This document shows positions 7,689 to 43,487 of a stretch of 64,000 nucleotides of DNA, one piece after another. The notes under the pieces are model-generated. The model was not told where the DNA came from, ran no database searches, and saw nothing but the letters and a program-made list of their open reading frames with translations. The DNA comes from Cyclobacterium plantarum (GTDB lineage: Bacteria > Bacteroidota > Bacteroidia > Cytophagales > Cyclobacteriaceae). Numbering within the stretch: the first letter of the stretch is position 1; each line of letters begins with the position of its first letter. The stretch covers positions 417,325 to 481,324 of the forward strand of contig NZ_JAANYN010000001.1 of the NCBI RefSeq assembly GCF_011290685.1. The letters are read 5' to 3'. The translations under genes and the position numbers were made by a program.

Positions 7689-7724
7689 ATCATTTTTATA
7701 CAGTTATTAAGAAATCTTTTTTGA

Positions 7725-9095: not shown

Positions 9096-9748
9096 GTTTT
9101 TTTAAACCCATATGGAATTTTATATTTAACCTTTATTTCCTAGTTAAAATTTCAGCTAAAAATGAAAAAGTTTATTGGGAGATTCTGGGAAGCAACTTGA
9201 TCAATAGCAAAATTCATCCTCAGGCCAGGATTTTTAAATACCATGTTTTAAGTTATTCCAGCGTGGATAAAGGGACCTATATTTCCTTAAATGCAAGAAT
9301 ATACAACACTACTATAGGGAAATTTTGCTCCATAGGCCCAAACCTTGTCAGTGGTTGGGGAGTTCATCCTATAGATGGTATATCCACATCTCCTGTTTTT
9401 TATTCTACCAATTGTCAGGTGGGTTTCACCTATTGTAAAAAAACCAAAGTTAAAGAGCTAATTCCTGTAACCATTGGGAATGATGTTTTTATTGGGGCCA
9501 ATGTCACGATCCTTGATGGTGTAAAAATCGGCGACGGTGCAGTTATAGGTGCAGGAGCCGTGGTGAGTAAAGACATTCCCCCTTATGCTGTTGCTGTAGG
9601 TTGCCCAATAAAAATCATCAAATACCGGTTTGATGAAAAAACAATTGACTCTTTATTAAAATCTAAATGGTGGGATGGAGATGAAGAGGTCTTGAAAAAA
9701 GTTGAAGAAATGTTTTTCGATGTTGAGAAATTTGTAAAAGAGGGTTAA
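9092..9748 (+). CDS. Hexapeptide-repeat acetyltransferase (CatB/Vat-like fold)
   Basis: 218 residues from ATG 9092, whose first bases overlap the flippase stop (ATGA). Left-handed beta-helix repeats are visible: GKFCSIGPNLV, VTIGNDVFIGANVTILDGV, KIGDGAVIGAGAVVSKDIP and YAVAVGCPIKIIKYRF. The HPIDGISTSPVFYS loop is typical of the xenobiotic-acyltransferase subfamily. In a polysaccharide locus it most likely O-acetylates a sugar of the repeat unit; drug acetylation is less likely from context. Confidence 0.85.
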   Translation: MSFFKPIWNFIFNLYFLVKISAKNEKVYWEILGSNLINSKIHPQARIFKYHVLSYSSVDKGTYISLNARIYNTTIGKFCSIGPNLVSGWGVHPIDGISTSPVFYSTNCQVGFTYCKKTKVKELIPVTIGNDVFIGANVTILDGVKIGDGAVIGAGAVVSKDIPPYAVAVGCPIKIIKYRFDEKTIDSLLKSKWWDGDEEVLKKVEEMFFDVEKFVKEG

Positions 9749-9754
9749 ACAAAT

Positions 9755-11008
9755 ATGAATAGTATCGAATATTCAGCAAATTATCAAAAATACGTAAACG
9801 AGCTTAATTTCAATTATAAGCTTTTCTGGTTTTTTGTACTCGTCTATAGCTTTAGTTCAGGTCTTGGCAGCACATTTATAAATAGCTTATTTATTGTCGA
9901 ACAGTTTTTTCAATCTTTGGCACTTATTGGATTGTTTTATGCAACTTACAATATTGTTCAATTTAAAGTTAGTAATAAATTTTTAGGCATTACTCTGGTG
10001 ATTTATTTCTTATGGGCAATTTTCATTACTTTTTACGGTTTTGAATTTACCTATAAGAATACTAAATCCGTTATTTTTGGGGGAGTGTTTAAATATTTTT
10101 TTCCAATTTTTCTCTTTTTCCCTAAAAATCTTTTTTTTTATAAAAAGCTATTCGTGGTTATTTTCTTTATGGCTATTGCTTTTATTATATTTAATTTGAT
10201 ATTTTTTGAAGAAGTTACTGCTCATTACGATTCAAATGTAAATGAAAAATTTATTTTTGAAGGATTTACAAGAAATTTTGGTATCCCTTTGGGCTTTTTA
10301 ATGTTTACTTATATATATCACAGTAAAACAAAGAATATTCTTATTCTTTTAGCGCTTCTTTTGATGCTTGGCATTTCAGCATATCGGGCAAGGAGAGCCA
10401 TAATGGTGGTATCAATGGTCTATTTCTTTATTTTTATGGTAATCGTATATATCTATGCTAACCGAAAAGTCCTAATGGTCATGATATTTGCTGTGATTTT
10501 ATTAGTGTCATCTGTTTTTGCTGGGCAGATTTATCAGGAACTCAGGTTTAGTTTTTTTGAAAAAATTGAAGAGCGTAATACAATAAATACACGGGAGGGT
10601 GTAGAAGCAGCCTTTTTTCAGGATTTTGAGCTGGAAGACTGGATCATAGGTAGAGGTATTAATGGAAAATATTGGTGTCCCAATATTGACATTAATGATA
10701 CAACTGGATACAGGACAATGATAGAAACAGACTACCTGAATATGATATTGAAAGGAGGAGGGGTTCTTCTTTTTCTAATTCTATTGATATCAATTCCTGC
10801 AGCTTTTAAAGCATTTTTTTATTCAAAAAATTTATTATCAAAAGTTGCTGGGATTTGGATAGTCCTTTGGATTTTAAGTTTATATCCTATGAACGTTTTT
10901 TTGTTTTCAGTGAATTATATTTTGTTTTGGATTTGTGTAGGTATTGGATATTCCAAGGATATGCGTTATTTATCTGATGAAACCATTAAAGAAGCATTTA
11001 AAAATTAA
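9755..11008 (+). CDS. O-antigen/capsule polymerase-like membrane protein (Wzy-like)
   Basis: 417 residues with about ten to twelve hydrophobic spans and a soluble loop around 265-325 (FFEKIEERNTINTREGVE... WIIGRGINGKYWC), the large periplasmic loop expected of Wzy/WaaL-type proteins. AYRARRAIM lies between spans. It is assigned from topology and position, since sequence identity in this family is low. It would join repeat units in the periplasm. Confidence 0.75.
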   Translation: MNSIEYSANYQKYVNELNFNYKLFWFFVLVYSFSSGLGSTFINSLFIVEQFFQSLALIGLFYATYNIVQFKVSNKFLGITLVIYFLWAIFITFYGFEFTYKNTKSVIFGGVFKYFFPIFLFFPKNLFFYKKLFVVIFFMAIAFIIFNLIFFEEVTAHYDSNVNEKFIFEGFTRNFGIPLGFLMFTYIYHSKTKNILILLALLLMLGISAYRARRAIMVVSMVYFFIFMVIVYIYANRKVLMVMIFAVILLVSSVFAGQIYQELRFSFFEKIEERNTINTREGVEAAFFQDFELEDWIIGRGINGKYWCPNIDINDTTGYRTMIETDYLNMILKGGGVLLFLILLISIPAAFKAFFYSKNLLSKVAGIWIVLWILSLYPMNVFLFSVNYILFWICVGIGYSKDMRYLSDETIKEAFKN

Positions 11009-29669: not shown

Positions 29670-32105
29670 CTATTCTTGTATCAGAAAGACACTCTCATAA
29701 GGTCCAAGAATTATTTTTTCAGAATGGGGTTCTCCTTTCACATCTTTGTATTGGGCTCCCAACTTAAATTGATTTGGTTGGGAATTTGGATTGGAAAGTA
29801 AAAGAAAGTTATCCAGATTGGTGGTTTCCTGAACCGGTGTTATGACATCAAAACTGATTTTATCAATCTTGATTTCATTTGTTGATTGGGAAAAGTTCAA
29901 TATTAAAGAAGCATCACTATCTTCTCGGGGCTCGGGTATTAATATTTTATGTTCTTTCTTAGATTTATTTAGAATAAATGTTTTTCCATGACTTAATTTT
30001 TGGTAAGAAGCACCGCGTTGTCGCAAATAAATTTCCCCAATCGCCTGTTCATTGGAAGTGGCTATCAATGTGAGCAGGTAGTATTTGTTATTTTTTACTG
30101 GTCCCAGGTCTAATTTTAAACTTGATACCTCATTATCCCTTGAAACGGAAATATAACCATTATTTTCCCAGGTTAAACTGCAGTTCTTGAGGCAATATAT
30201 TCCGGAAGCATCGCTTGAAAAATCCAGATTTTTAATGGTGTGGGTTTCAGCAATAGCAGGAAGCGGGCTGGGGGCTGCCTGGATAGTCTGGGTAGTGTTG
30301 TCTTCCCACGTCGTTTTCTTTACCCAGTTATCATGATTAAAGTACAATTCATTTTTCGTGGCGATATTCTGAACTTGAAATGTAGCACCATCCCCAAGAA
30401 GATCTATATAGTGGTTTTGATCCGAAAACCCAATAACAGAAAAATCCGGATCAGCGGATCTGATTCCCATTACAATTTGGTGGGCTGTCTTTTTTATGAG
30501 GGTGTTGTCTTTGATCACGACTTTTTCCAGGGGTTGTCCCAAATGATCATCTGACAGAAAAATCAAATAGGATGCATCAAACACAAGGTTATCCTTTACT
30601 TCAATATTATTGGTATTGTGCAGGTAAATGCCTTTGTTGGCGATGCCAGAAATGGTATTTTCAGCTACCAGGATGTTTGCAGCATCATCATCCAGGTATA
30701 TTCCCTCTGCAGGAGCTGGAAAATCGGAACCTTGAAGGGATGTTCCCTCTCTTGCTCCAACGCCATTTTGAATTATATTACCGATGATTTTCCTATTGAG
30801 ATACTGCTTGCGGGTACCGCCAGTGTAGGAATAAATCCCACCGCCGTCACCTTTTACAAGGCAAAAACCATTGATATAATTGTTATTTACCAAAGTATTG
30901 CTTCCTCTAAAACCAATGCCTACATAACCTGAATTCTTGATGGTATTGTTGGAGATGGTATCTGCGTCTGAAACGCTAAAAATGGCGTATCCATTATTGT
31001 CTCCGCTTTGCCCCATCCCCGAAAATACATGGGTGTTTTCGATATGGTTGTTGCTTATGGTTGCCTGATAATTTCCGGATCTCAGGTAAACACCCGAGTT
31101 TTGAGCATTAAGAATCGTTGAATTTTCAAAGCGAAAACGGTCCATATTTTCAACCATTACAGCATTTTCACCTGAATTTTCTATTTTGACTGAAATGAAA
31201 TGCATCGAATCGCCACCTCTTATCAATATGGCGTCTTTGTTTGCCCCTTCAAAATGTATCCCATGAAAAACAATATGTCTGGTATTGGTAAGTGTGGTGA
31301 GAAGATTGTCTTTTGTACTGACTTTAATGGATATTTTATCAGGGTTTTGGTCCTCCAAACATATATAAAGTCTGTTTGCATTGACATCATGGTACCATTC
31401 ACCAAGTTGGTCAAGGGTATTCAGGTGGTTTTGAATAAAAAAACCATATCCTTCTTTTGGTTCGTAGCTGGATGAAGGTAAAAACGTAAGGGTATTGGAT
31501 TGATGGGAAATAATTTGTTCCCGGTCCATAATCCAATGGTTTTTTCTGATAACCAACTCAGCCCCTTCCCACTGCTCCCCTTCCTGTAAGGATGGATGCG
31601 CTATTTGGTTTTTCCCCTTGATTTCATCGGGAACCAAATACCCTTTGTTTTTTTCGGTTTGGTTTGGGAATCTCCCCAGCGCCATAGGCTTCCCGTTTAG
31701 TGTTAATAAATTGACTTGAGGAGTAGCCTGAGGTATATTGGTGAAGAAGATTCCAGGAGCAAATTTTTTCCAGTTTTTAAGCAAGGTAAACCCTGAAATG
31801 ATAGGGGGATTGCCAATTCCATATTGGCTAAAAACAATGGGCTTTTCTGAAGTTCCCGATTTTTTCAGGTTTAAGCTTCCATAAAATATGTCCCCAGACT
31901 TAAAAAGAACAGAATCTCCAGGATTCAGTTGAGGAATAAATTCATTCAATTTATTTAAAGTCTGCCATGGGCTGCCGGAATGCTGGGCCTCCTCTGCGGT
32001 TCTCTCATCATTTCCGGAAGTAGATGAGAAATAATAGTTTGCAGCATAGACCTTGCTATTATGCCAAATAAAAAAAAACAGAAGTAAAAATTTTGCTTTA
32101 TGCAT
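29670..32105 (-). CDS. Secreted beta-helix protein, shorter paralogue of 21857-26773
   Basis: 811 residues from ATG 32105, giving a signal peptide MHKAKFLLLFFFIW...VYA; the longer upstream start is rejected. The N-terminal ~600 residues align with the large protein: ANYYFSSTSGNDER, SPWQTLNKLNEF, LNPGDSVLFKSGDIF, AELVIRKNHWIMDR, FIQNHLNTLDQLGEWYHD, GANKDAI and many NN-I helix repeats. The ~200-residue C-terminal region is beta-rich (LILNFSQS... SEKIILGPYESVFLIQ). It has no malectin domains and no T9SS tail, so it may stay periplasmic or use another anchor. Likely polysaccharide-active; the exact reaction is not established. Confidence 0.82.
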   Translation of the reverse strand: MHKAKFLLLFFFIWHNSKVYAANYYFSSTSGNDERTAEEAQHSGSPWQTLNKLNEFIPQLNPGDSVLFKSGDIFYGSLNLKKSGTSEKPIVFSQYGIGNPPIISGFTLLKNWKKFAPGIFFTNIPQATPQVNLLTLNGKPMALGRFPNQTEKNKGYLVPDEIKGKNQIAHPSLQEGEQWEGAELVIRKNHWIMDREQIISHQSNTLTFLPSSSYEPKEGYGFFIQNHLNTLDQLGEWYHDVNANRLYICLEDQNPDKISIKVSTKDNLLTTLTNTRHIVFHGIHFEGANKDAILIRGGDSMHFISVKIENSGENAVMVENMDRFRFENSTILNAQNSGVYLRSGNYQATISNNHIENTHVFSGMGQSGDNNGYAIFSVSDADTISNNTIKNSGYVGIGFRGSNTLVNNNYINGFCLVKGDGGGIYSYTGGTRKQYLNRKIIGNIIQNGVGAREGTSLQGSDFPAPAEGIYLDDDAANILVAENTISGIANKGIYLHNTNNIEVKDNLVFDASYLIFLSDDHLGQPLEKVVIKDNTLIKKTAHQIVMGIRSADPDFSVIGFSDQNHYIDLLGDGATFQVQNIATKNELYFNHDNWVKKTTWEDNTTQTIQAAPSPLPAIAETHTIKNLDFSSDASGIYCLKNCSLTWENNGYISVSRDNEVSSLKLDLGPVKNNKYYLLTLIATSNEQAIGEIYLRQRGASYQKLSHGKTFILNKSKKEHKILIPEPREDSDASLILNFSQSTNEIKIDKISFDVITPVQETTNLDNFLLLSNPNSQPNQFKLGAQYKDVKGEPHSEKIILGPYESVFLIQE

Positions 32106-32234
32106 GATGAAAACTTTCGATTCAGCTCCTTGTACCAAAGCTGAGTTATTAATTGTGATTTTGGATAAGAACGATATAGCTCCCGAGAGGTTAGCTTTTT
32201 CAAGTAAAACTGTCTTTTACTCTCATTATTTCCA

Positions 32235-33344
32235 CTAACTTTCAGAAGGTTGAAATTCCCGTCCAAATGTTTCAATATTAAACCTTTGATCATTTTCATT
32301 TCTGACATACAATGTTCTCGTGGGGAAGGCAATGGAGACACCCATGGCGGTAAACTGTTCAAATATCTCAAAGTTTATCTGTTCCTGGATATCCATAAAT
32401 GTATTGTAATCAGCAACTTCTATGTAATAAACAATTTCAAAATCAAGACTGGAATCGCCAAAAGATTTAAAATGAGCCCTGTCAAAAGTTACAGGGGATT
32501 GCTTTTGTACGATTTCTTTTAGCAATCCAGGGATTTGTTTTAATTTCTCCGAAGGTGTTTCGTAGGTCACCCCAACATTAAAAAGTATCCTTCTTCGCTG
32601 CATTTTTTTGTAATTGTGAATCCTGGATCCAGTAAGATCACTGTTTGCCACTACCAATTCCTCTCCTGACAGGGTTTTGATTCTTGTTGTTTTGATGCCT
32701 ATCTTCTCCACAATTCCGTTTTTATCATCCACAACCACAAAGTCGCCGATTTCAATCGGCCGGTCAAAAAAGATAACAAAGTAATTGAACAAATCCCCTA
32801 ATATATTCTGGGCAGCAAGGGCTACTGCGATGCCACCAATTCCCAAGCCGGTAATGATGGCGGTAACATCGTATCCCATATTATCAAACAAAAAAAGAAT
32901 ACCCATGCTCCAAATCAGGATGTTTACGATGATGATGATTCCGCCGATCTGTTTCACCTTTTCCTCACCGTTTTCCTGTCTACGTACGTAACTGCGAAGA
33001 GCCATGATGATAAAGCTGGCAATTATACGAATAAAAAAATAGGTCAAAACAAACTTATGGCCCGTGGAAATCGCATAGTCCATTTTTTCATTCAGGGTTA
33101 AAATCTGAATGCCCCAGAAGACTATTGAAATATAGATGGCAGGTAGAACAAACTTTTCAATAATTTCAAATAAATAATCATCGAAGCTATTATCGGTTTT
33201 TTCCGTCAGGCGCTTGATTTTCTTGAATAAGGTTTTTTTAAAGGCCTTGATAATTAAAATGCCTAAAAGGATAAAGCCAAGGGCCTGGAGATAACTTTGC
33301 ACGCTGTTGTTCCAATACTCCTGATTTAAGTAATCTTGTATCAT
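32235..33344 (-). CDS. MscS-family mechanosensitive channel
   Basis: 369 residues. Three or four N-terminal membrane spans (about 15-40, 60-85, 95-120, 130-160) lead into the pore helix GLGIGGIAVALAAQNILGDL. The beta domain RPIEIGDFVV, GIVEKIGIKTTRIKTLSGEE and a C-terminal alpha/beta domain with VTYETPSEKL follow. Such channels open under membrane tension and release solutes on hypo-osmotic shock. The length is near E. coli MscS plus extra N-terminal spans. The stop lies 129 bp before the start of the beta-helix gene, on the same strand. Confidence 0.93.
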   Translation of the reverse strand: MIQDYLNQEYWNNSVQSYLQALGFILLGILIIKAFKKTLFKKIKRLTEKTDNSFDDYLFEIIEKFVLPAIYISIVFWGIQILTLNEKMDYAISTGHKFVLTYFFIRIIASFIIMALRSYVRRQENGEEKVKQIGGIIIIVNILIWSMGILFLFDNMGYDVTAIITGLGIGGIAVALAAQNILGDLFNYFVIFFDRPIEIGDFVVVDDKNGIVEKIGIKTTRIKTLSGEELVVANSDLTGSRIHNYKKMQRRRILFNVGVTYETPSEKLKQIPGLLKEIVQKQSPVTFDRAHFKSFGDSSLDFEIVYYIEVADYNTFMDIQEQINFEIFEQFTAMGVSIAFPTRTLYVRNENDQRFNIETFGREFQPSES

Positions 33345-33572
33345 TGCAAGTTGAAATTTGATTGGGAATTAAAAGGGGTATAAGACCATAATATTGAATA
33401 ATATAGCATTTATTTTCCCCAATAATTTCTAAATTACAATTATTCCGATTTTATTCAAATCTTATTTAGTGGGAAAGGATAGGGCCAGGATTTCCCTTTC
33501 ATGTCCGTTTTGATTTTTCCATGGCATACCAACCGCTAATTTAAAGGAATTCGGGACTTGATTTACTGTTAA

Positions 33573-34565
33573 TTAATCCGGAATCAAAATATTGTCTTTC
33601 AATGTGGCCGGAAGAAAGCTCATATCTGTTTTTCCTGCGATTCCTTTTATTTTTCCCGAATCGGTAAACTGCCACATGGCGATTTCGGGCAATAGGATAG
33701 TTGTTGAGTCGGTTTTTACGGTAAATGATTTTGGGGGTTTGTTCGAAAATTTAGCCATCCAATAAATATAATCATCAAAATGCCCCTTTAGATGACTTTC
33801 GTAGAAGGCTTCATATGTGTAGATGATGGGTTTTACCTGGAAGTGATCTTCAATTGCTCCCAAATAAATTTTCAAATTTTTGATCATCAGGTTATTTGAA
33901 ATTTCCGGGCTGGTACAGCCCGTGCAATCCAATTCTATGTCCAATATGGGTATGATATCATTTTCTTTCAGGTTTACCTGTTTGATATAATGCTTTGCCT
34001 GGTCCAGTGGGGGGTCTTTATATTGATAAAAATGATAAGCTCCCCGAAGTATTCCGGCTTTGCCTGCCGCTTTCCAGTTTCCCTGGAAATAGGGATCAGT
34101 GGCTTTGCTTCCCTGTGTTGCTTTGATCAGTGTAAAATCAATTTTGTGTGGGAGAGAGTCTGATTCTACTTGTGACCAGTTGATGGCGTTTTGCCAATGA
34201 GAAACATCGATACCGTAATAGCCATGGGTTTGGTGTCCCGGGCTCCAGGCTTCATCCTGCAGATTAAACATCCGAAGTATACTGTCATAGTGGTGCCCTC
34301 TGTGTGTAATTTCTCCGGATTCACCAGGAGTGGAATGGCCTGCAAAAAACAATGGTTGTGTAGCCCGTTGAAACTGACTGGAATCAGGATTTCCCTGTTC
34401 TGTTAAGGTGTTCTGATTGAGGTAGATGTGGTGCTCATGCACAGTTTGGCCGAAGTTTACAATTCCGGTTATGTGGAGTAGGATGACCAAAATCATGGTA
34501 CTCATCGTAAAAAAACCAAGTAGCATGATAAATATAATTCTTCTGTACATTTCCCTTTTTCTCAT
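33573..34565 (-). CDS. GH25-family lysozyme, membrane-anchored
   Basis: 330 residues. The N-terminal basic segment and one transmembrane helix (about 8-32) would place the enzyme in the periplasm. The GH25 domain spans about 118-325, with the catalytic region YGIDVSHWQNAINW, FTLIKATQGS, AYHFYQ, DIIPILDIELDC (Asp-Ile-Glu of the active site), PIIYTYEAFY and MWQFTDSGKIKG. It cleaves peptidoglycan between MurNAc and GlcNAc. It starts 34 bp after the DUF2589-like gene on the same strand, so it may belong to that cassette, either to open a gap in the wall or as a general housekeeping enzyme. Confidence 0.92.
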   Translation of the reverse strand: MRKREMYRRIIFIMLLGFFTMSTMILVILLHITGIVNFGQTVHEHHIYLNQNTLTEQGNPDSSQFQRATQPLFFAGHSTPGESGEITHRGHHYDSILRMFNLQDEAWSPGHQTHGYYGIDVSHWQNAINWSQVESDSLPHKIDFTLIKATQGSKATDPYFQGNWKAAGKAGILRGAYHFYQYKDPPLDQAKHYIKQVNLKENDIIPILDIELDCTGCTSPEISNNLMIKNLKIYLGAIEDHFQVKPIIYTYEAFYESHLKGHFDDYIYWMAKFSNKPPKSFTVKTDSTTILLPEIAMWQFTDSGKIKGIAGKTDMSFLPATLKDNILIPD

Positions 34566-34599
34566 AGGTCAGGCTGATCGATTTCGTCATTCCTATGGT

Positions 34600-35148
34600 T
34601 TAGATAATGGATTTAATCAGGTGGTCATTGATCCTAAGGAAGGACTCTGCGGGTTCTCCTGCCTCAAAGGTTATCTTTATTTTTGCCAGGGAAGATTTTT
34701 TTCCGAAAAAACCACCCCCAGACACACCTCCCAGGTCAATTCCAATGGATTGACCCTCCTCCCGGGGCTGGTTTTTTTTGAATAGATTCCTGCCTGCTTT
34801 CCGGTCTTCCACCAAATCTCCCAGGGCTACCTTAAACTCAACTTCCATATTTTTTATTTTTATGGCTGTTGGGGGAATAAGGCTCATTAATGGAACCTGA
34901 ATTGTTGTAGTGCTGCCTTTTTCAGCATCGGGATGCATATTTGGTACTTCAACTGCCCAGGTTTTGGCGATCCCACCATTTCTATGGATATGGGCCGCCA
35001 TTTCTTCATTTTTTTTGTTTTCATCTTCAGGCCATTCAAAGTACCTGTCCAACTGCTCCAGGTGTTGCTGTTCGGTAAGCAACTGAGCTTCCAGGACAGA
35101 CTGGTGAATGGCTTGAAGCAGGTTATCCAGTTTTATCGTTTTCGCCAT
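34600..35148 (-). CDS. DUF2589-like protein (short paralogue)
   Basis: 182 residues with no signal peptide or membrane segment. The central VPLMSLIPPTAIKIKNMEVEFKV matches the VPMLAVVPIPNLQVDTVDITF block of the gene at 35445, which is the core of DUF2589. The glycine-rich GVSGGGFFGKKSS loop leads to a final beta-rich AKIKITFEAGEPAESFLRIND. Function of the family is unknown. It starts 4 bp after the small gene upstream. Confidence 0.7.
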   Translation of the reverse strand: MAKTIKLDNLLQAIHQSVLEAQLLTEQQHLEQLDRYFEWPEDENKKNEEMAAHIHRNGGIAKTWAVEVPNMHPDAEKGSTTTIQVPLMSLIPPTAIKIKNMEVEFKVALGDLVEDRKAGRNLFKKNQPREEGQSIGIDLGGVSGGGFFGKKSSLAKIKITFEAGEPAESFLRINDHLIKSII

Positions 35149-35152
35149 GAGG

Positions 35153-35437
35153 TTATTTGTTTTTCTCCAACCAAACAGGTTTTCTTAAAAATCCCACATG
35201 GTAGGTGGTTCGCTGGAGGGTAATCTGGTGGTCCCCCACCTGAAAAACGCCAACAGAAATGTCTTTTCCGATGATCTTTCCTTTAGGGTATTCGTTAAGG
35301 CATTTATTCAATAAAGCCATTTGATTTTCCTGTTGTTCTTCATTAAGTGGGTTGTTTGGGTTGATGTTACCTATGCTGACTCTTTTTACATAGGTAACAT
35401 CCCCCAAATCAGCTGCCTTGTTTTGCTGTTGGATCAT
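35153..35437 (-). CDS. Small protein of the DUF2589 cassette
   Basis: 94 residues from ATG 35437; an upstream in-frame ATG would overlap the preceding gene, so 35437, 7 bp after that gene's stop, is preferred. The sequence has a Q/N-rich helical first half (NPLNEEQQENQMALLNKCL) and a beta-rich second half (ISVGVFQVGDHQITL, YHVGFLRKPVWLEKNK). No family recognised. Tight packing between the two DUF2589-like genes implies joint function. Confidence 0.7.
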   Translation of the reverse strand: MIQQQNKAADLGDVTYVKRVSIGNINPNNPLNEEQQENQMALLNKCLNEYPKGKIIGKDISVGVFQVGDHQITLQRTTYHVGFLRKPVWLEKNK

Positions 35438-35444
35438 TTTAAAA

Positions 35445-36179
35445 TCAGCTGAGCGATGGGTGGGACCCATCTGGACTTACCGGCTTGGTATCCACCAGTT
35501 TGCCGGTTTTTGGATCTCGTTTGCTGGCAGCTTCCAGGGGTGCTACATTTACATCCATAGGAGTTGCAGCTGTTGCCATCATGTCCAGTACCCTGGCCAG
35601 GCCCTCCGGAGTACCGTGATTGGAAGCGGTTACTTCCACATGGTATTTGGCAGAATTGTCAGAGCTTCTGGTATTTTCTTTATGGGTAGCCACCGAGCCA
35701 TGAATTTTCACTGTGGCACTTACGGGACCCCATCCAATTTTTGCAGATACATCTGCTGATGCATTCATATCCGTAGAGCTGGATTCGGAGGTTGAACTCT
35801 TGACCTCCATGTCAAAGGTGATGTCTACCGTGTCTACCTGAAGATTGGGGATGGGTACTACTGCCAACATGGGTACCCGGATTTTTACCTCCTCTATGGT
35901 TCGCTGTGGTGTTGGATTTGGGTTTTTATCACTGACTTCCGGCACATAAATACCAGGCCGTTCAAATTCAAAGTCCAGCATCCGGGCGGCACCGGTAGTG
36001 AACTCACCTGGCTTTTTGTCTACCGGAACCTGGGTAAATCCCACTGTATTGATGAAATCCGCCGTTGCTTGTGCCAGTTTAACATTCGCGGAAACTGCTG
36101 CATTCAAGGGACCTCCGATCAGGTCCTGCATGGGCAATCCCTTGAATTGATCAGACATATTTACTAAACCTTCTGCCAT
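35445..36179 (-). CDS. DUF2589 domain protein
   Basis: 244 residues from ATG 36179; ATG 36158 is possible, and the upstream extension is not protein-like. The N-terminus is typical for the family: LPMQDLIGGPLNAAVSAN, LAQATADFINTVGF. After a LDFEFERPG block comes the core beta unit VPMLAVVPIPNLQVDTVDITF, then MEVKSSTSESSSTDMNAS, a stretch resembling designed amphipathic strands (KIGWGPVSATVKIHGS), and a disordered tail. Predicted cytoplasmic. Function unknown; the name is assigned from recalled family pattern and should be checked by profile search. Confidence 0.75.
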   Translation of the reverse strand: MAEGLVNMSDQFKGLPMQDLIGGPLNAAVSANVKLAQATADFINTVGFTQVPVDKKPGEFTTGAARMLDFEFERPGIYVPEVSDKNPNPTPQRTIEEVKIRVPMLAVVPIPNLQVDTVDITFDMEVKSSTSESSSTDMNASADVSAKIGWGPVSATVKIHGSVATHKENTRSSDNSAKYHVEVTASNHGTPEGLARVLDMMATAATPMDVNVAPLEAASKRDPKTGKLVDTKPVSPDGSHPSLS

Positions 36180-36321
36180 TTTATTAAGATTTTTTTGGTT
36201 AAAAATAAGTATACTGTTTTGCAGGAGGTAATATGCTATTCTTTCTAAATATTGTATTAAAATCAGGGGTGGACAAAAAGTAGACAATACCGGTGATAGA
36301 TTAAATTCCCTCGCTAGCGGG

Positions 36322-38199
36322 CTATTTGGTTAACCGATTGGAGAACTGCCCATTTTTTTGGCTTTCTGAAAGGTTGGTGATTTTCTTTTTAAACCTATAC
36401 CTGGCCTTCTTGGTGCCATCGTAGGAAATGCCTAATACCGAAGCCATTTCCTGGGTGCTGAATCCCAGCTTGAAAAGTGCGCCCAACATGAGTTCGTTTT
36501 CTGTTAGTTCGGGAAGATCTTTTTTCAAACGGTCCCAATATCCCGGAAAGGCTTTTTCAAACAATAACCTGAAAGTGCGGCAATCTTCCTGTCTTGAAAT
36601 CTTGAATTGAGCCAGGGCTTCCAGGGCTTCCTGTCGGGCATAGTTAATAGCCGATTTTTCCAGCTCCCTAACTAGTTCTTGGTTTTTACTCAGGGAATTG
36701 GCCAGGTTTTCTGAGTAAACCAGCAGTTTTTTTTGTAACTTCTCCTGCTTCTTTTTACTGTCCCTGAGCTGTAGATCGAAAACACGAAGTAATTTTTCTT
36801 TTATGCTTAGCTTGTAATAAAAGTAGACTAAAAAGAAGAAGCTTGACAATGCCAGTAGGGCGAGACCTATTTGAATGGACGCAGTTGATTCTTTGGGGAA
36901 TGCAGTCGAGAATTGCTCTGATTTTGGGTCTTTCTTCTGGCGGTAAAGAATTTCAGCACTGGCAATATTTTTGGCTTTCTCCAGATTGATCAGGCTGTCA
37001 GATAATTTTTCTTTTAACTGAAGGCTATTGCGATAAGCCTGTAGGTTTTTTTGTTTATAGTATTCTTCAGAAAGGTCTTCAAGCAAATCTCTGTACAGGG
37101 AAAGGGCTTTTCCTTTTTGGGCATAGGAGATGGCTTCCTGGTAAACCTTTACGGCATCCATGGACTGGTTTTCGGCGGAGATAATTTTCCCTTTTAACCA
37201 ATAGGCATAACCCAGACTTCTGTGGTTGCCAGTTTCAAGCTTAATCGGAATAGCTTTGGAAAGAAGTCTTTTGGCCTCGGCAAGATCATGCTGCTCAAAG
37301 GCCAGGAAGGCCATATTGTTCAGGATCATGGCGATTTCTGGTTTTCGATGCTGCTTTTCTGCCAGGGAAAGTGCCAGACTGTTATGCTCCTTGGCGGAAT
37401 CATACAAACTTTCCTGCCCAGAGTTGTCCGCCAGCTTTTTATAAACCAATCCCAAATTTAGGTGCGCGTAAAGGGTTTGCACGGGTAATTGTTGGGTCTT
37501 TGCATGGCTAAGCGCACTGATCAGGTAATACCTTGCCTGATCATGATCCTCCATTTCTGTATATACCAGTGCCAGGCTCGTTTCGCAATCAATGAATAAG
37601 GCGTAGTCCAATGGTTCATCCTTATTTTGGATTACCTGGATGGCCTGAAGGAGACTTGACACTGCTTTTTCCAATACCCCCATTTCTTTATATAACTGCC
37701 CTTTCCCTTTCAGAATATTTGCCAACCGTATTGGGTCTCCATTCGCAATAGCAATGTCATGTGCCAGATCAATATGTGTTTTTGCCCTGTCAAAATCTTC
37801 CATTCTGCGATAAAGCTGATAGAGGGCATTGTGGTTTTTCTCATTCAAGCTATTCAGCTTGTAGCTTTTGCTAATGGATAGGGCTTCAAGAAGTTTTTTC
37901 TCGGCCTTTTTATATTCTCTTTGATCGTAATAACTGTATCCAAGCACCTGGGCAGCCTCAGAATGGATAGCCGGAGAGCCTGAAAACCTGGCTGTTGCAT
38001 ATGCCTGCAGTGCATAGGCAAAGGATTGTTCTGGTTGGGTATATGCCAATTGATTGGAGAGATCCAAAAGCAAGCGAAGGCTGTCTAAATTATCTGCCTC
38101 CTGGTGAAAGTCAATCGCCTGAATATTCCCCAACTGAATAAATGTAGCCAGTATAAAAAAAGTAACCTTGGTCACGATTAAAGCTGTTTGGTTTGCCAT
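36322..38199 (-). CDS. TPR-domain transcriptional regulator with C-terminal HTH
   Basis: 625 residues. Signal-like hydrophobic N-terminus (about 8-28), then a long run of tetratricopeptide-type helical repeats (about 40-395), one transmembrane segment (about 438-458), a coiled coil (about 465-515) and a LuxR-like helix-turn-helix at the end (LTENELMLGALFKLGFSTQE, ASVLGISYDGTKKARYRFKK). Bacteroidota use this layout for membrane-tethered regulators that sense in the periplasm. It lies upstream of the DUF2589 cassette with a 142-bp gap, on the same strand, so it may control it. Confidence 0.85.
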   Translation of the reverse strand: MANQTALIVTKVTFFILATFIQLGNIQAIDFHQEADNLDSLRLLLDLSNQLAYTQPEQSFAYALQAYATARFSGSPAIHSEAAQVLGYSYYDQREYKKAEKKLLEALSISKSYKLNSLNEKNHNALYQLYRRMEDFDRAKTHIDLAHDIAIANGDPIRLANILKGKGQLYKEMGVLEKAVSSLLQAIQVIQNKDEPLDYALFIDCETSLALVYTEMEDHDQARYYLISALSHAKTQQLPVQTLYAHLNLGLVYKKLADNSGQESLYDSAKEHNSLALSLAEKQHRKPEIAMILNNMAFLAFEQHDLAEAKRLLSKAIPIKLETGNHRSLGYAYWLKGKIISAENQSMDAVKVYQEAISYAQKGKALSLYRDLLEDLSEEYYKQKNLQAYRNSLQLKEKLSDSLINLEKAKNIASAEILYRQKKDPKSEQFSTAFPKESTASIQIGLALLALSSFFFLVYFYYKLSIKEKLLRVFDLQLRDSKKKQEKLQKKLLVYSENLANSLSKNQELVRELEKSAINYARQEALEALAQFKISRQEDCRTFRLLFEKAFPGYWDRLKKDLPELTENELMLGALFKLGFSTQEMASVLGISYDGTKKARYRFKKKITNLSESQKNGQFSNRLTK

Positions 38200-38362
38200 A
38201 TGGCTTGAATATCAGTCAGATATTCTGTTTTAAATTTAGTATAAAAATTTAACCAATCCTAAAACGCCTTTTTAAATTATCAATGGGGGTGCAAAAACAA
38301 CGCAGATTTAATAATAATGGAAAAATGGACCTTTTGCCGCCAGGTGTTTTAAGTCAAAAAAA

Positions 38363-38386
38363 GGGAGCCGATTGTTATCGGCTCCC
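38363..38386 (-). terminator. Intrinsic terminator of the MFS transporter
   Basis: GGGAGCCGAT and ATCGGCTCCC form a perfect 10-bp stem with a TGTT loop. On the minus strand it is followed by a run of T. Confidence 0.9.
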
Positions 38387-38412
38387 TAAAGTATATGGTG
38401 TAGGTTTTTTTC

Positions 38413-39645
38413 TTAATGAGAAACAGGACTCACCATTTCCGTTTTTTTGGAATTTTTCTGCCAGAAGAAAAATATGATAAAGAGTACGATCAGGATGGCC
38501 GGAAATAAGGCCATGTTCTGTAAGGTAGCCTGGCCAGCCATAAGCTCCAGTTCCTCCCCGGAATACATTCCAGACAATTCTTCTCGGGAACTATCAATCC
38601 ATCCACCAATGATAGGTTGCCAGATAGCGGTGGAAAACATACCGATTCCACCAATTATAGACATGCCCAAAGCACCACTAAGTGGAACTCGCTGTGCTAC
38701 TGCACCTACCATTACCGGCCAGAAGTAAGCTACTCCCAAGGCAAAAATGATGGCTACAAAATAGGCAATCCCACCCGTAACCATACTGAATAGGAAAATT
38801 CCGATAGTGGCGAGGATGGACCCTGCCAATAATACGCCGGTTTGTCCCAGCTTTTCAACAACCGGCCCTGCAAAGAACCTGGCGATGGCCATTACACCTG
38901 TGGTCAGTGCAAGAATAATCATTGCATTGGCACCACTGTTAGCCAGTACGATATTAACCCACTGCTGCGGTCCGAACTCGGAAATGGCAGTAAGGGACAT
39001 ACAAACGAAAAGAAAAAGGAATACCGGACTGAATAATGCCTTAAAATTATTGCCCAATGAGGTAGCTCCCTCCACTTTTGCTTTTGGAAATGCTTTTCCA
39101 TAAAATAATACGGCATAAATCACTGTTGGTACCATGGTGATCCACATCTGGGCTTCCCATCCCAGATTCATGGTGGTCATCACATTGGAAATGATGGCAC
39201 CTAACATGATACCACCCGGGAACCACATGTGAAACCTGTTGAGCATTTTGTTCATTTTCACCCCTGAATACATATCCGCTATCATGGGGTTACAGGCTGC
39301 TTCCGTACACCCGTTACCGAACCCGATAAATAGTGTGGAAATCAGTAAGGTGGTATAACCACCAGCGTAAATGGTCAATAAAATACCCAAGGTATGGGCA
39401 ACGAATGCAACCCGCATGATGTTTCTGGCACCAAAAGAATGGTAAACAATCCCTCCTATAATCATGGAAATCGGAAATCCCAAAAACCACATGGAGTTGA
39501 TAAAGCCTAGTTGAGATGCCGAAAGGCCAAAATCTTCGCCAAGCTGTGGCAGGATGCCGGCCCTGATGCTAAACGTAAAGGCGGTGGTAATCAAAGCAAA
39601 ACAACTCCCGTTAAAGAGTGCGCTTTTGTTGATGTTTTCGTTCAT
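38413..39645 (-). CDS. Major facilitator superfamily transporter
   Basis: 410 residues with about 12 membrane spans. GFPISMIIGGIVYHSFGARNIMR corresponds to the loop 2-3 signature of MFS proteins, and a GGIGMFSTAIWQPIIGGWID block lies near the C-terminus. Conserved acidic and Asn residues in spans (e.g. GNGCTEAACNPMIADMY) suggest a proton- or solute-coupled carrier. Substrate not predictable; sugar or nucleoside carriers of this size are common in the phylum. Monocistronic, with its own terminator. Confidence 0.88.
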   Translation of the reverse strand: MNENINKSALFNGSCFALITTAFTFSIRAGILPQLGEDFGLSASQLGFINSMWFLGFPISMIIGGIVYHSFGARNIMRVAFVAHTLGILLTIYAGGYTTLLISTLFIGFGNGCTEAACNPMIADMYSGVKMNKMLNRFHMWFPGGIMLGAIISNVMTTMNLGWEAQMWITMVPTVIYAVLFYGKAFPKAKVEGATSLGNNFKALFSPVFLFLFVCMSLTAISEFGPQQWVNIVLANSGANAMIILALTTGVMAIARFFAGPVVEKLGQTGVLLAGSILATIGIFLFSMVTGGIAYFVAIIFALGVAYFWPVMVGAVAQRVPLSGALGMSIIGGIGMFSTAIWQPIIGGWIDSSREELSGMYSGEELELMAGQATLQNMALFPAILIVLFIIFFFWQKNSKKTEMVSPVSH

Positions 39646-40245
39646 TGAGATTGGGTTTAGAAGTTTTAAATATTGTTTGAGGTTGATTAATCAAAACTTT
39701 TGGACAATATATAAAAAAATGATTTTATCTTCTGACTTTTATAAAAAATTATGAGGAATGACAAAATACGGGTTTGAGAGGGCAGGGAAGGAAGGGTTAC
39801 TTTTATAATGAGAGGTATAAAAATCCACGCTTCCGAAATAGTAATAAAACAAAAACGGGAAGCATTCTTTGCGAATATTTCCCGTTCCATAATGTAAGGA
39901 CCGTAGTCTTTATATCATGCCAAGCTACAGTTATTGTGACTTTTCCCCAGTTGCCCAGGTTCATGGCCTTAGGATCTAAAACACTACTAAAAACCCTTTC
40001 GGATTTCAAGCTTGAATTTTGGAACGTCTGCGGTTTCCCGTTTCAGGCTTCAACACTAAAGTTTTATCCCATTTTGTTCTCAATCCCGTGATTCGACCTT
40101 AGCCCGAAATTTTACTTTCGGTCTTTTATCTCTTACTTGATACTGTTAAATGTAGCAAGTTGTTATTACAATAGCAATTTTATAAGTTATTATTTATAAA
40201 CAATTTTTCCACAAATAAATTTGAAATAAACACAAGTTATGCACA
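39646..40245. other. 600-bp intergenic region with stem-loop and possible interspersed repeat
   Basis: No gene is convincing, although a minus-strand frame at 39803-40009 reads NLGNWGKVTITVAWHDIKTT and overlaps a stem-loop (39855-39885). The composition is more GC-rich and less gene-like than the neighbouring coding DNA, and it could be a dispersed element. The tract next to the protease stop (about 40130-40240) is AT-rich. Confidence 0.35.
39855..39885. other. Stem-loop
   Basis: ACGGGAA (39855-39861) pairs with TTCCCGT (39879-39885), and ATTC pairs with GAAT inside. No T tract suits it as a simple terminator. Confidence 0.5.
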
Positions 40246-41178
40246 TTATTTGTCTTCATAAGCCGGGACAGCTGGTATATTGTTTGGTTGACTCTCCAGT
40301 AAACGCAACACCTCTTCAATGGCCTTTTCCAGTTGAGGATCTGTTCCTTGTGCTAACCGGGTCGGGTCTTCCGGGACTTTAATATCAGGGTCGACCCCAT
40401 AACCTTCCCTGAACCATTCCCCGTCAGGATCATACATCCGGAAAGTGGGTACCGTCACATTACCGCCGTCAATCAGGTTTGGTGCTCCGCTGATGCCTAT
40501 CAATCCACCCCATGTTCGGGTACCTATCAAAGGCCCCAAACCGGCTTTTTTGAAATAATCAGGAAAAGCATCCCCTCCAGAGCCGCTCCACCCATTGATC
40601 AACATTACTTTGGGACCAAAATTGGCCACCGGAGGCCATTGCCAGGTTTGTCCATCACGCACCGCCCAGAAAGCAAGGGCAGGGCGGTTAAGCAATTCTA
40701 TAAACCGATCGGGAATCTGGCCGCCATTGTTAAAGCGTTCGTCGATGATCAAGCCTTCTTTGTCAAACTGTGCGTAAAACATCCTGGCCAGTTCTTCCTG
40801 TCCATCCTGACCCGTGCTTGGCACATAAATGTAGCCGATCCTCCCCCCGGTCGCCTCAGCTACTTTTTTTCTGTTGGATTCTATCCAGGCCAGATTTCGA
40901 AGCCGGGTTTCATCGGCCAGGGTCTTGACCAATACCTTCCTCGCACCTTTAATTTCCGGGTTTGGGTTGATCGTCAGTTCAACTGTTTCTTTAGCTAATC
41001 CTTCAAATAAAGCCCATGGATCCCTATCTGCATCCAAAGGTATGCCATTGACTGCCAGGATAAAATCACCTTCTTTTATGTTGATGCCAGGCTGGGCCAG
41101 GGGAGAACGGACCTCGGTATCCCAGGCAGCTGCGCGAATGATTTTTTTATATAAAATGCACCTTCCTTGAATCCCCAA
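40246..41178 (-). CDS. Tricorn-like S41 protease, C-terminal part (PDZ + protease domain) after a frameshift
   Basis: Continues the protein of 41076-43487 in another frame; the real junction is near 41148, where the first frame reads FYIKKSFAQ and this one FYIKKIIRA. The PDZ domain has NIKEGDFILAVNGIPLD. The S41 core has GRIGYIYVPSTG, GLIIDERFNNGG, the nucleophile block INGWSGSGGDAFPDYF, RTWGGLIGIS and EGYGVDPDIKVPEDP, with the acidic residue of the tricorn tetrad. It lacks its own start and signal peptide, so it is unlikely to be made independently. Confidence 0.85.
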   Translation of the reverse strand: MGIQGRCILYKKIIRAAAWDTEVRSPLAQPGINIKEGDFILAVNGIPLDADRDPWALFEGLAKETVELTINPNPEIKGARKVLVKTLADETRLRNLAWIESNRKKVAEATGGRIGYIYVPSTGQDGQEELARMFYAQFDKEGLIIDERFNNGGQIPDRFIELLNRPALAFWAVRDGQTWQWPPVANFGPKVMLINGWSGSGGDAFPDYFKKAGLGPLIGTRTWGGLIGISGAPNLIDGGNVTVPTFRMYDPDGEWFREGYGVDPDIKVPEDPTRLAQGTDPQLEKAIEEVLRLLESQPNNIPAVPAYEDK

Positions 41179-43487
41179 TCTATACCCAGGTAACCTGTTT
41201 GCTTACTGAGTGCCTTTTCTGTATCCCCACCTCCCCTATAGGTATGTGAAGCCGAAATTTCAGCGATCAATTCCCCCAAAATGTAATTGACATCCCAACG
41301 GGTAATGGCATGGTCCAGCAGTTTCTCGTAACGATCTTTCATGGCTTCCCAATCTACCCCATGCATGTTGGGGTCATAGAAGAAATCTCTTTCAAAACGC
41401 CAGGTATCCATAAAGAGCTGCTTCCATTCCTTTTTTGGGTCTAGCGTCATTTCCATTTTTGAAAGGGGTAATTTATCTTCTATTTTTTGGTCTTTGTTCA
41501 TTGGGATTACTGCCAATGATCCATTGCTATTGACAAGTAACTTTTCACCATTTGCCGACAATTGGTACCCGCCCACTTCTGTCAGGATGGTATGTTCTTC
41601 CCTTTCTTCCACATCATAGTAAACCAGGTCGGCCTTGGCCTCCGGGGTCCCGGCCACCGGATATTTCAAATAGGTCACTTTACCTTTTGCAGCCCCCATA
41701 GTCCTGTAGTTCCCGGCCCTAGGAGGTAAAATCACCAACCGCTCCTCCATTCCTTCCCAATCTATGGTAGTGGTTTCTGTCTCTGTCTTTTTCTTTTCTG
41801 AGGTTTCTTCTTCCTCTTTGGATTTTTCTTCCTTCACCGGAGTCTGGTCATTTTTAGGGGAAAGCGGAGAAGGCGTTTCTCTTGACAGGGGAATTGCTGC
41901 CAATTGACTGCTGTTAACATATACCCAACTTCCTTCAAAATCACTGTATACAGGGTCAAAATTTCTTTGTGTTATAAAAAAGATAAACTTTCCCTCGGGA
42001 TCAAAGACGGGATTTTGGTCGTCATAAAAACCCGATGTGGCCTGCTGAAGGGATTTTTCCTGGTAGTCGTAAATGGCAATGGCTGTTTTCCGGTTACTCA
42101 AGTCCTTTTCATAGGTAAGGTACCGACTATCAGGAGACCAGGAAACCGAAAAATTCCTCAATCCTCCTTCATACAGGAATTTCATTTGATCGACCCGGGT
42201 GGTGACTTTTGTGTTTTGATCGTAAATGTACAGTGTCATGGTCTTATCTATAAAGGCCATTTTTTCACTATCCGGTGACCAAAAAATCCGATAACGGTAT
42301 CCTGGCCCATAATCGCTCAAAATTGTTTCCTCCCCGGGGCTCTCCATATCTCTAAGGGTTAATTCATACTCCCCTGTGCGATCGCTCCAATAGGCAATGT
42401 ACCTGCCGTCAGGAGACCAGGAGGGATAGCGCTCCGCAACACCAGGACTCTGACTGAGATTGATCACCGCCCCATCTTTGGCGGGTACTGAAAATAATTC
42501 TCCCCTTGCTTCCACCACTGCACGATTGCCATCGTAAGCCAGCCAGGCATTGGCCAGCTGTTCTTCAACTTTGATCTTTCGGGGCATCAAAGTGGCCAAA
42601 TCAGCACTGACCTGTATGGCCACTTCTTCATATTTTTCTGAACTTAGATCCAAAAGGTAAATTTTGCCAGCTGCTTCAAAAACGATACTCCCGGACCCCA
42701 GGCTTGGAAAATGCACATCAAAATCCATAAAGTGTGTGATTTGATGCAAGGACTTTCCTTTTATGTCATATCGCCAGATATTACTGCGTTGGTTTTGACC
42801 CCTGTCAGAAAGAAAATAGATGTTTTCGTTTTCAGCCCACATGGGAAATTCATCGTTATATGGGCTGTTGCTGATATTTTCAGCAGCAAAATTCTCAAGA
42901 TCAAAAATAAAAATATCGGTAGCCATGCCCCCGGTATACCGCTTCCAGGTTCGGAATGCACGACTTTTAGGGGTATAGACCATTTTCTTTCCATCTGGAG
43001 AAAGCATCCCAAACTCGCCATAGGGTACTGGAAGCTTATCAGGTAGTCCTCCGCGAGAAGATGCCCTGTAAAATTGGGAAAAACGCTGTTTTTCACTTTC
43101 CCTTCCTGAAGCAAAAATCAGGTGATTTCCGTCCGGGTACCAATCCACTACCCTGTCACTCATTCCATGGTGGGTGATTCGTTCAGGTACACCTCCCTTT
43201 GAAGGCATTACATATACGTCCACGTTTCCGTCATAATTCGCACTGAAGGCAATCTCAGATCCATCAGGAGAAAATCGCGGAAACGATTCTTCTCCATTTG
43301 CGCTGGTTAACCGTTGGGCCAGGCCCCCATTTTTTGGTACCATCCAAATGTCTCCTCCATAGGCAAAAGTGATTGCCGTCTCGGATACATCCGGATATTG
43401 TGCAATTCGGGCTTCTATTTGCGCAGTTGCCCTCAACCCGAACCAGGACAATAGGAGTGTATACAATACGGAGATTTTTATTTTCAT
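41076..43487 (-). CDS. Tricorn-like S41 protease, N-terminal part (beta-propellers), frameshifted
   Basis: Secreted oligopeptide-degrading protease, here cut short at 803 residues of about 1080. Signal peptide MKIKISVLYTLLLSWF...TAQ, then two beta-propeller regions (about 25-300 and 310-530) with repeated SPDG-EI-F and WSPDSRYL units. A charged linker with KEEKSKEEEETSEKKK is near 560-580, and the core-1 domain has WRFERDFFYDPNMHGVDW and ISASHTYRGGGD, holding the catalytic Ser-His pair. The last ~22 residues are out of frame. An A7 run (plus T7 at 41142-41148) is where the frame is lost; eight A would restore it. Confidence 0.88.
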   Translation of the reverse strand: MKIKISVLYTLLLSWFGLRATAQIEARIAQYPDVSETAITFAYGGDIWMVPKNGGLAQRLTSANGEESFPRFSPDGSEIAFSANYDGNVDVYVMPSKGGVPERITHHGMSDRVVDWYPDGNHLIFASGRESEKQRFSQFYRASSRGGLPDKLPVPYGEFGMLSPDGKKMVYTPKSRAFRTWKRYTGGMATDIFIFDLENFAAENISNSPYNDEFPMWAENENIYFLSDRGQNQRSNIWRYDIKGKSLHQITHFMDFDVHFPSLGSGSIVFEAAGKIYLLDLSSEKYEEVAIQVSADLATLMPRKIKVEEQLANAWLAYDGNRAVVEARGELFSVPAKDGAVINLSQSPGVAERYPSWSPDGRYIAYWSDRTGEYELTLRDMESPGEETILSDYGPGYRYRIFWSPDSEKMAFIDKTMTLYIYDQNTKVTTRVDQMKFLYEGGLRNFSVSWSPDSRYLTYEKDLSNRKTAIAIYDYQEKSLQQATSGFYDDQNPVFDPEGKFIFFITQRNFDPVYSDFEGSWVYVNSSQLAAIPLSRETPSPLSPKNDQTPVKEEKSKEEEETSEKKKTETETTTIDWEGMEERLVILPPRAGNYRTMGAAKGKVTYLKYPVAGTPEAKADLVYYDVEEREEHTILTEVGGYQLSANGEKLLVNSNGSLAVIPMNKDQKIEDKLPLSKMEMTLDPKKEWKQLFMDTWRFERDFFYDPNMHGVDWEAMKDRYEKLLDHAITRWDVNYILGELIAEISASHTYRGGGDTEKALSKQTGYLGIDWGFKEGAFYIKKSFAQLPGIPRSVLPWPSLAST

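Follow-up and report, generated by a model that had tools for sequence, protein, structure and literature searches.

A DUF2589 cassette of Cyclobacterium plantarum with a small conserved partner and an exchangeable lysin: a candidate release or export module

Lysis-based secretion and the Cyclobacterium cassette

A holin is a defining part of the Type 10 secretion system. According to two papers, a phage-type lysis cassette in such systems releases cytosolic toxins by lysis (PMC10847048), secretion without lysis also occurs (PMC13284979), and these systems are expressed under regulation and originate from phage lysis (PMC10847048; PMC13284979). This system is the nearest known kind for a cassette found in Cyclobacterium plantarum (Bacteroidota), within a window of 64,000 nucleotides (contig NZ_JAANYN010000001.1, positions 417,325 to 481,324). 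The cassette encodes a tetratricopeptide repeat (TPR) protein, two DUF2589 proteins (A and B), a small protein (s) between them, and a GH25 muramidase. Tentatively, and at somewhat less than an even chance, we read it as a module for regulated release or export: A, B and s would supply either the machinery or the cargo, and the lysin would breach the cell wall.

Like Type 10 secretion systems, the cassette pairs a muralytic enzyme of phage type with a regulator; some loci also have effector-like genes. Unlike them, the window cassette carries no holin or spanin gene, and sequence reading revealed no small, holin-like membrane protein among its five products. Its core instead consists of A, s and B, which are not mentioned in the abstracts of PMC10847048 and PMC13284979; furthermore, the enzyme family varies between loci, and the enzyme found here has its own anchor. 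Two other described kinds of system were considered and rejected. For a contractile injection system, no sheath, tube or baseplate gene was found among the five genes with Pfam and PHROGs; for a known defense system, PADLOC-DB gave only a stray weak Cas5 match of B (E 0.026) and nothing at E <=1 for the other four proteins.

At the level of single families, A and B both match DUF2589 (PF11655) above its curated cut-off of 23, with 145 and 69 bits, and they are the sole two DUF2589 matches found in the C. plantarum genome. The A subfamily linked to s is only part of this family. In the open-licence PMC library searched, a single paper names DUF2589, for the short lactate-induced Archaeoglobus fulgidus genes AF0414-AF0417, and no paper names PF11655. 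The enzyme resembles other GH25 muramidases, i.e., phage endolysins and bacterial lysozymes, in that the Pfam match covers the whole domain (profile 1-180 of 180, E 5.8e-40) and in its matches to PHROGs endolysin families; unlike them, it has an N-terminal anchor and, in Cyclobacterium, a fixed place after DUF2589-B. For s, no match at E <=1 was found in NCBIfam, PHROGs or PADLOC and Pfam returned one below its cut-off (E 0.023), while 55 members of the s alignment gave no credible match in Pfam (best E 0.005). The features are as follows.

36322..38199, minus strand: TPR protein, 625 aa, at the cassette head; putative regulator or sensor (Pfam TPR_12, E 1e-17)
35445..36179, minus strand: DUF2589-A, 244 aa; N-terminal helix, beta domain and an alternating, hairpin-like stretch at residues 141-163 (PF11655, 145 bits)
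35153..35437, minus strand: small protein s, 94 aa, or 105 aa from an alternative start at 35470; no credible family match
34600..35148, minus strand: DUF2589-B, 182 aa, of the same Pfam family as A (PF11655, 69 bits)
33573..34565, minus strand: GH25 muramidase, 330 aa, with an N-terminal hydrophobic anchor (PF01183, E 5.8e-40; PHROGs endolysins)
38362..38387, minus strand: terminator-like stem of 11 pairs followed by a T run, after the upstream MFS gene

All five open reading frames (ORFs) of the cassette (33573-38199) lie on the minus strand with intergenic gaps of 142, 7, 4 and 34 bp, assuming starts at 35437 for the small gene (94 aa) and at 36179 for A. An initial annotation, made from the letters alone, had already described five codirectional genes with these gaps, two DUF2589-like proteins sharing a VP-L-P core, a small gene matching nothing, and a membrane-anchored peptidoglycan hydrolase at the end; all of this is borne out by the ORF coordinates, by the profile matches and by the hydrophobic stretch at the N-terminus of the GH25 protein. 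Its description of the head gene as a membrane-spanning TPR regulator with a helix-turn-helix (HTH) domain holds for the TPR part. Pfam called no HTH, with only weak hints from other profiles (NF058600, E 0.0099; phrog_1740, E 0.022), and the C-terminal HTH and membrane span are putative features read by eye. A search of 30000-42000 against Rfam gave no match, and promoter-like sites occur at chance level (17 found, 15.7 expected).

A conserved core with an exchanged lysin

Within Cyclobacterium, the cassette is present or absent as a unit, and both gain and loss are compatible with its distribution. DUF2589 and s co-occur in the identical 8 of 12 genomes. The MscS gene is present in all 12, and in the four genomes lacking the cassette it adjoins the MFS gene, with spacings of 187, 190, 333 and 335 bp. 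This empty site, at which the head TPR gene is missing together with the other cassette genes, has the same two flanks between which TPR, A, s, B and GH25 sit in the window and in loci L059-L063 and L065 (L063 has two extra ORFs ahead of MscS), and thus indicates that the cassette is more than a chance arrangement. The terminator-like stem divides the MFS gene from the cassette; on reading, the spacers of the empty site show comparable inverted repeats with T runs. In addition, L064, on the same contig as G001, holds a decayed cassette (7212-10042) with damage in all five genes: A is spread over three frames, the TPR gene is mostly gone and reduced to pieces, B and GH25 are truncated at the ends facing each other and run together, and s lacks a start codon at the usual place while its remaining frame is open. 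Cyclobacterium provides the closest relatives in the genome collection.

Beyond the genus, DUF2589 was found in 17 of 99 genomes of relatives and, for a phylum sample, in 19 of 296. The corresponding figures for s are 8 of 99 and 1 of 296, the latter with up to 17 first-look candidates scored per genome. As s is missing from 9 of the 17 and 18 of the 19 DUF2589 genomes, it is no fixed companion of the DUF2589 family at large. The A subfamily, unlike the whole family, is tied to s across several phyla. Among the best 80 of 238 A relatives found in the genome collection, a six-frame search detected s in 77 loci; it is missing only in two Amycolatopsis loci and one Massilia locus. Among the record titles are Cyclobacterium, Flavobacterium, Xanthomonas, Luteibacter, Paraburkholderia, Massilia, Desulfovibrio, Geotalea, Prosthecobacter, Lachnospiraceae and Treponema, and several records are metagenome bins. 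In a plasmid collection, A matched 5 of 72,556 records.

A second type of module, without s and with a fixed gene order, was seen in L239, L244, L247 and L250. It consists of a divergent DUF2589 protein, a protein of ~225-285 aa with a similar N-terminal helix and a VPR motif, and a helical protein of ~180-190 aa. In L246 (186-6818), such a module immediately precedes a SpvB/TcdB-like gene, which recalls the setting of Tc toxin loci.

A recurrent partner of the core is a lysin, whose family is exchanged from lineage to lineage while A and s are kept. It was searched for with nine seeds from eight muralytic families. The six-frame count, which did not use the GH46 seed, accepts a match anywhere in the fetched stretch and has no far control; on this basis, a muralytic-family gene occurs in 64 of the 80 A loci, that is, in 64 of the 77 bearing s. 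Gene order was compared in 99 loci with a called core, comprising 72 of the 80 A loci and 27 of 28 regions from DUF2589 genomes without s; the gene caller did not detect it in 8 of the 80 or in L258, whereas the six-frame count covers all 80. A muralytic gene lies at most four genes from the core in 57 of these 99 loci. Of the 760 genes up to four places from the core, 59 are muralytic matches, against 2 of 580 at greater distance, both at place five (Fisher p 4e-13, a value that is overstated because the seeds were taken from near genes and loci of the same genus are related). Among the near lysins, 49 of 59 directly adjoin the core and 58 of 59 share its strand.

By locus, the families are GH108 (17), GH19 (13), endolysin-like (8), GH25 (7), PG_binding_1-bearing (7), amidase-2 (3), GH24 (2) and muramidase (1), with Pfam applied to family representatives only. 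Pfam recognizes nothing in the endolysin-like representative and no catalytic domain in the PG_binding one; both match PHROGs endolysin families, as part of the 9 of 10 representative lysins that match PHROGs families annotated as endolysin or amidase (the exception is GH46). In a quickly built tree with 103 A proteins, a single change each accounts for GH19, for GH25 and for the endolysin-like group of s-bearing loci, whereas PG_binding requires three and GH108 four. With all 14 labels (virus, none and without-s among them), 22 changes are required, compared with 70.8 on average after shuffling, although near-copies favor low counts and several long branches meet; the lysin labels stem from a first seed set with four DUF2589-B proteins among the GH25 seeds, and corrected seeds gave the same near and far counts. 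The many unrelated lysin families and their distribution on the tree support the linkage independently of the p-value. A Pfam comparison of 145 near with 145 far gene representatives (5 of 150 left out on each side) was uninformative, as the 25 commonest families were listed and muralytic ones were single after dereplication. In L240 (8413-9792), an amidase-2 domain is fused to the endolysin-like phrog_3000 domain that is freestanding in Flavobacterium, which supports a wall-lytic role for the latter.

These counts bear on two expectations of the initial annotation. It had anticipated a conserved DUF2589-DUF2589-GH25 order. Among the examined loci, Cyclobacterium alone shows this order, apart from an s-less variant in G018 (L231); elsewhere the position of GH25 is occupied by other lysin families. 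It had also stated that the linkage would be chance if DUF2589 genes usually occur without GH25 or the small gene. Family-wide, this is largely the case, and the wording was too narrow, given that the whole family is mostly without s and GH25. For the A subfamily, s in 77 of 80 loci shows that the linkage is not chance. A fortuitous neighborhood of unrelated genes, to which only the family-wide scarcity of s and GH25 in the sampled genomes lends support, is contradicted by the empty site, the 77 loci with s, the 64 with a lysin and the joint decay; this explanation is extremely improbable and was rejected.

Neighboring genes and viral loci

Regulator-like genes, including response regulators, TPR kinases and LytTR proteins, account for 59 of 760 genes near the core and 11 of 580 far from it, with seeds here too taken from near genes. 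Such adjoining regulators, together with the STAS- and phosphatase-like neighbors read from the sequence of one Lachnospiraceae locus, would suit a role in wall remodeling or stress, in which A, B and s serve as an intracellular scaffold or regulator of the lysin and no cargo is released. This role fits poorly with phage-type lysins of many unrelated families and with effector-like neighbors, and we regard it as rather unlikely.

The effector-like neighbors differ between single loci. They comprise Peptidase_C58 genes in L091 and L124, a jacalin gene in L071 with a gene of the same cluster in L124, fascin in L130, GH46 in L124, patatin in L247 and a SpvB/TcdB-like gene in L246; L066 has a nuclease match below the cut-off. 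Variable toxin-like genes of this kind could point to antibacterial or anti-eukaryotic effector delivery, with the lysin, or elsewhere a lectin, protease or phospholipase, acting as the toxin and A, B and s as its carrier or as a loading platform directed against other cells. A family of small, apparently secreted proteins, present in 27 of the clustered loci and situated near the core in Proteobacteria (e.g., L067:9718-10164 and L085:6909-7652; one scanned member has no Pfam match), is a possible lysozyme inhibitor or immunity protein and might then provide immunity. However, the cassette lacks injection machinery and a candidate immunity gene, and the Cyclobacterium GH25 protein has its own membrane anchor; we consider delivery to other cells unlikely, by a shade more so than wall remodeling. 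A further conserved family of ~310-340 aa stands beside the module in Treponema- and Lachnospiraceae-type loci (L130:7220-8197, L125:9534-10556 and L129:4502-5437; the scanned L130 member has no Pfam match).

Relatives of A also occur in viral records. The A profile retrieved 243 stretches from IMG/VR, of which 189 encode a relative; the figures below rest on the best 80 of these 189. Two DUF2589 genes on one strand were found in 77 of the 80 loci, directly adjacent in 58 and with the shorter first in 76, while s was found in two. One of these, L165 (7995-9994), lies on a viral record of 195 kb, has A, s and B, and is the only clearly viral s locus among the 80; a terminase match was not found in this record. 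L139 resembles a bacterial-type locus, and a prophage or misassignment is possible. Judging from the sequence, the viral contigs carry recombination, primase or helicase, and tail-fiber-like genes. A terminase match (phrog_2) was obtained in 17 of 20 tested records, a result that is only supporting as to phage nature because the profile also matches 11 of 14 control genomes. On the A tree, 8 of 10 viral representatives cluster (SH-aLRT 94), and the tree is compatible with transfer in either direction between viruses and bacteria. In a collection of phages, A matched 1 of 50,697 records, the same one with either query, and phage B matched none.

The viral DUF2589 pair is found in several arrangements: close to lysis genes, as the last part of a recombination operon, or in inverted orientation amid other genes. 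In 56 of the 80 loci, a gene that clusters with the endolysin-like gene of Flavobacterium is located at a distance of 1-5 genes, a raw count that is uncorrected for chance and reflects few independent backbones. The occurrence of the pair in 77 viral loci and several genome contexts, with s in only two, would also suit a phage conflict, in which A, B and s would detect phages or block them, the lysin would kill infected cells, and a phage B-A pair would act as counter-measure or decoy. The patatin and the sub-threshold nuclease among the neighbors resemble abortive effectors. On the other hand, no significant PADLOC match was obtained, and the Xanthomonas loci have common flanking genes with no defense island recognizable by eye. 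We regard a role in phage conflict as less probable still than effector delivery.

A possible route of release or export

For the release or export module favored here, the following sequence of events can be envisaged. Firing of the regulator would lead to synthesis of A, B and s in the cytosol, where they would assemble together. The lysin would then open the wall, and the assembly, or a co-encoded cargo, would leave the cell, either through lysis or through export without lysis, as in Type 10 secretion. With its own membrane anchor, the Cyclobacterium GH25 protein could reach the periplasm alone. An N-terminal hydrophobic stretch is absent in 52 of the 59 near lysins and present only in the seven GH25 proteins, so that in most other lineages membrane passage must be supplied by something else, possibly the DUF2589 proteins. 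What we infer is joint action of A, B and s in the cytosol, wall opening by the lysin, and departure of something from the cell. The initial annotation had suggested a cytoplasmic assembly that needs local wall opening. This idea is partly supported, in a broader form than proposed: it fits the lysin in 64 of 80 loci and the 52 of 59 lysins without a hydrophobic N-terminus, and its mechanism stays conjectural.

A more far-reaching version takes A, B and s as the central parts of a hitherto undescribed machine for release or secretion, spread across bacterial phyla and shared with uncultivated phages, in which the DUF2589 assembly performs the membrane step and any available lysin the wall step, with no classical holin. 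This version is doubtful, and we consider it improbable in its full extent. Among 54 loci with both s and a lysin, 47 have no small membrane gene (<=160 aa with a hydrophobic stretch) within two places; some membrane gene lies within four places in 41, so a holin analogue, nearby or elsewhere, may be compatible with these loci. Residues 141-163 of A show a conserved alternation of hydrophobic and polar residues flanking a GWGP turn on both sides, a pattern that would suit an ordinary sheet as well as a membrane hairpin; the alternation is equally strong in other strands of A. A 19-residue hydropathy window exceeds 1.6 in 26 of 114 A-profile proteins (maximum 1.85), and hydropathy in the s family reaches at most 1.27 in 69 proteins.

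In the AlphaFold2 (AF2) model of A, a long helix at the N-terminus and a beta domain are modeled with moderate confidence, and residues 128-174 are left unplaced. The model of s is a beta-alpha-beta-beta arrangement (pLDDT 81). No fold match stood out for A (Foldseek against PDB, best E 1.5; one VIA row, Z 2.1; BFVD, best E 0.36) or for s (Foldseek, best E 0.093; the best VIA score, Z 4.6, was a tie of small alpha-beta proteins and was taken as non-informative). Some of the rows returned for s were Alba-like. PDB sequence searches gave nothing below E 0.8.

Several observations weigh against a release or export module. Besides the overstated p-value of the lysin association, 15 of the 57 loci have a lysin of the endolysin-like or PG-binding group, whose first representative lacks a catalytic Pfam domain, and 13 of the 77 s-positive loci have no match to the eight families, although some lie on short contigs and L124 has GH46. 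Only 3 of 30 loci without a called s gene have a seeded lysin near; these 30 include L108 and L133, in which the six-frame search does find s, and single loci among those without called s have CHAP, M15/VanY or DUF5675 genes close by. Several effector-like genes stand in loci without s (L091, L246 and L247). The overall model of A has low confidence (pLDDT 61.8) and matches no known structure. A separate small membrane gene, read as holin-like, is present in 52 of the 80 viral loci, which argues that the DUF2589 pair is not simply a phage holin. Finally, cargo, pore and export are all putative.

If the module does release or export a product, it would represent a lysin-coupled export route without a recognized holin. 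It also offers a concrete and testable context for DUF2589, which is widespread and without a described function, and adds s as a conserved partner that Pfam does not hold. The module further links operons of bacteria and phage-type lysins from many families with uncultivated phages.

Two minor observations concern the surroundings of the cassette. In the cassette-free Cyclobacterium loci L259, L260, L261 and L262, longer homologues (1507-1526 aa) of the window gene at 29670-32105 lie downstream of MscS. At 40246-43487 of the window, overlapping frames of 310 and 803 aa correspond to a single gene of 1083 aa in L059 and L065; this gene thus appears frameshifted here, by mutation or sequencing error.

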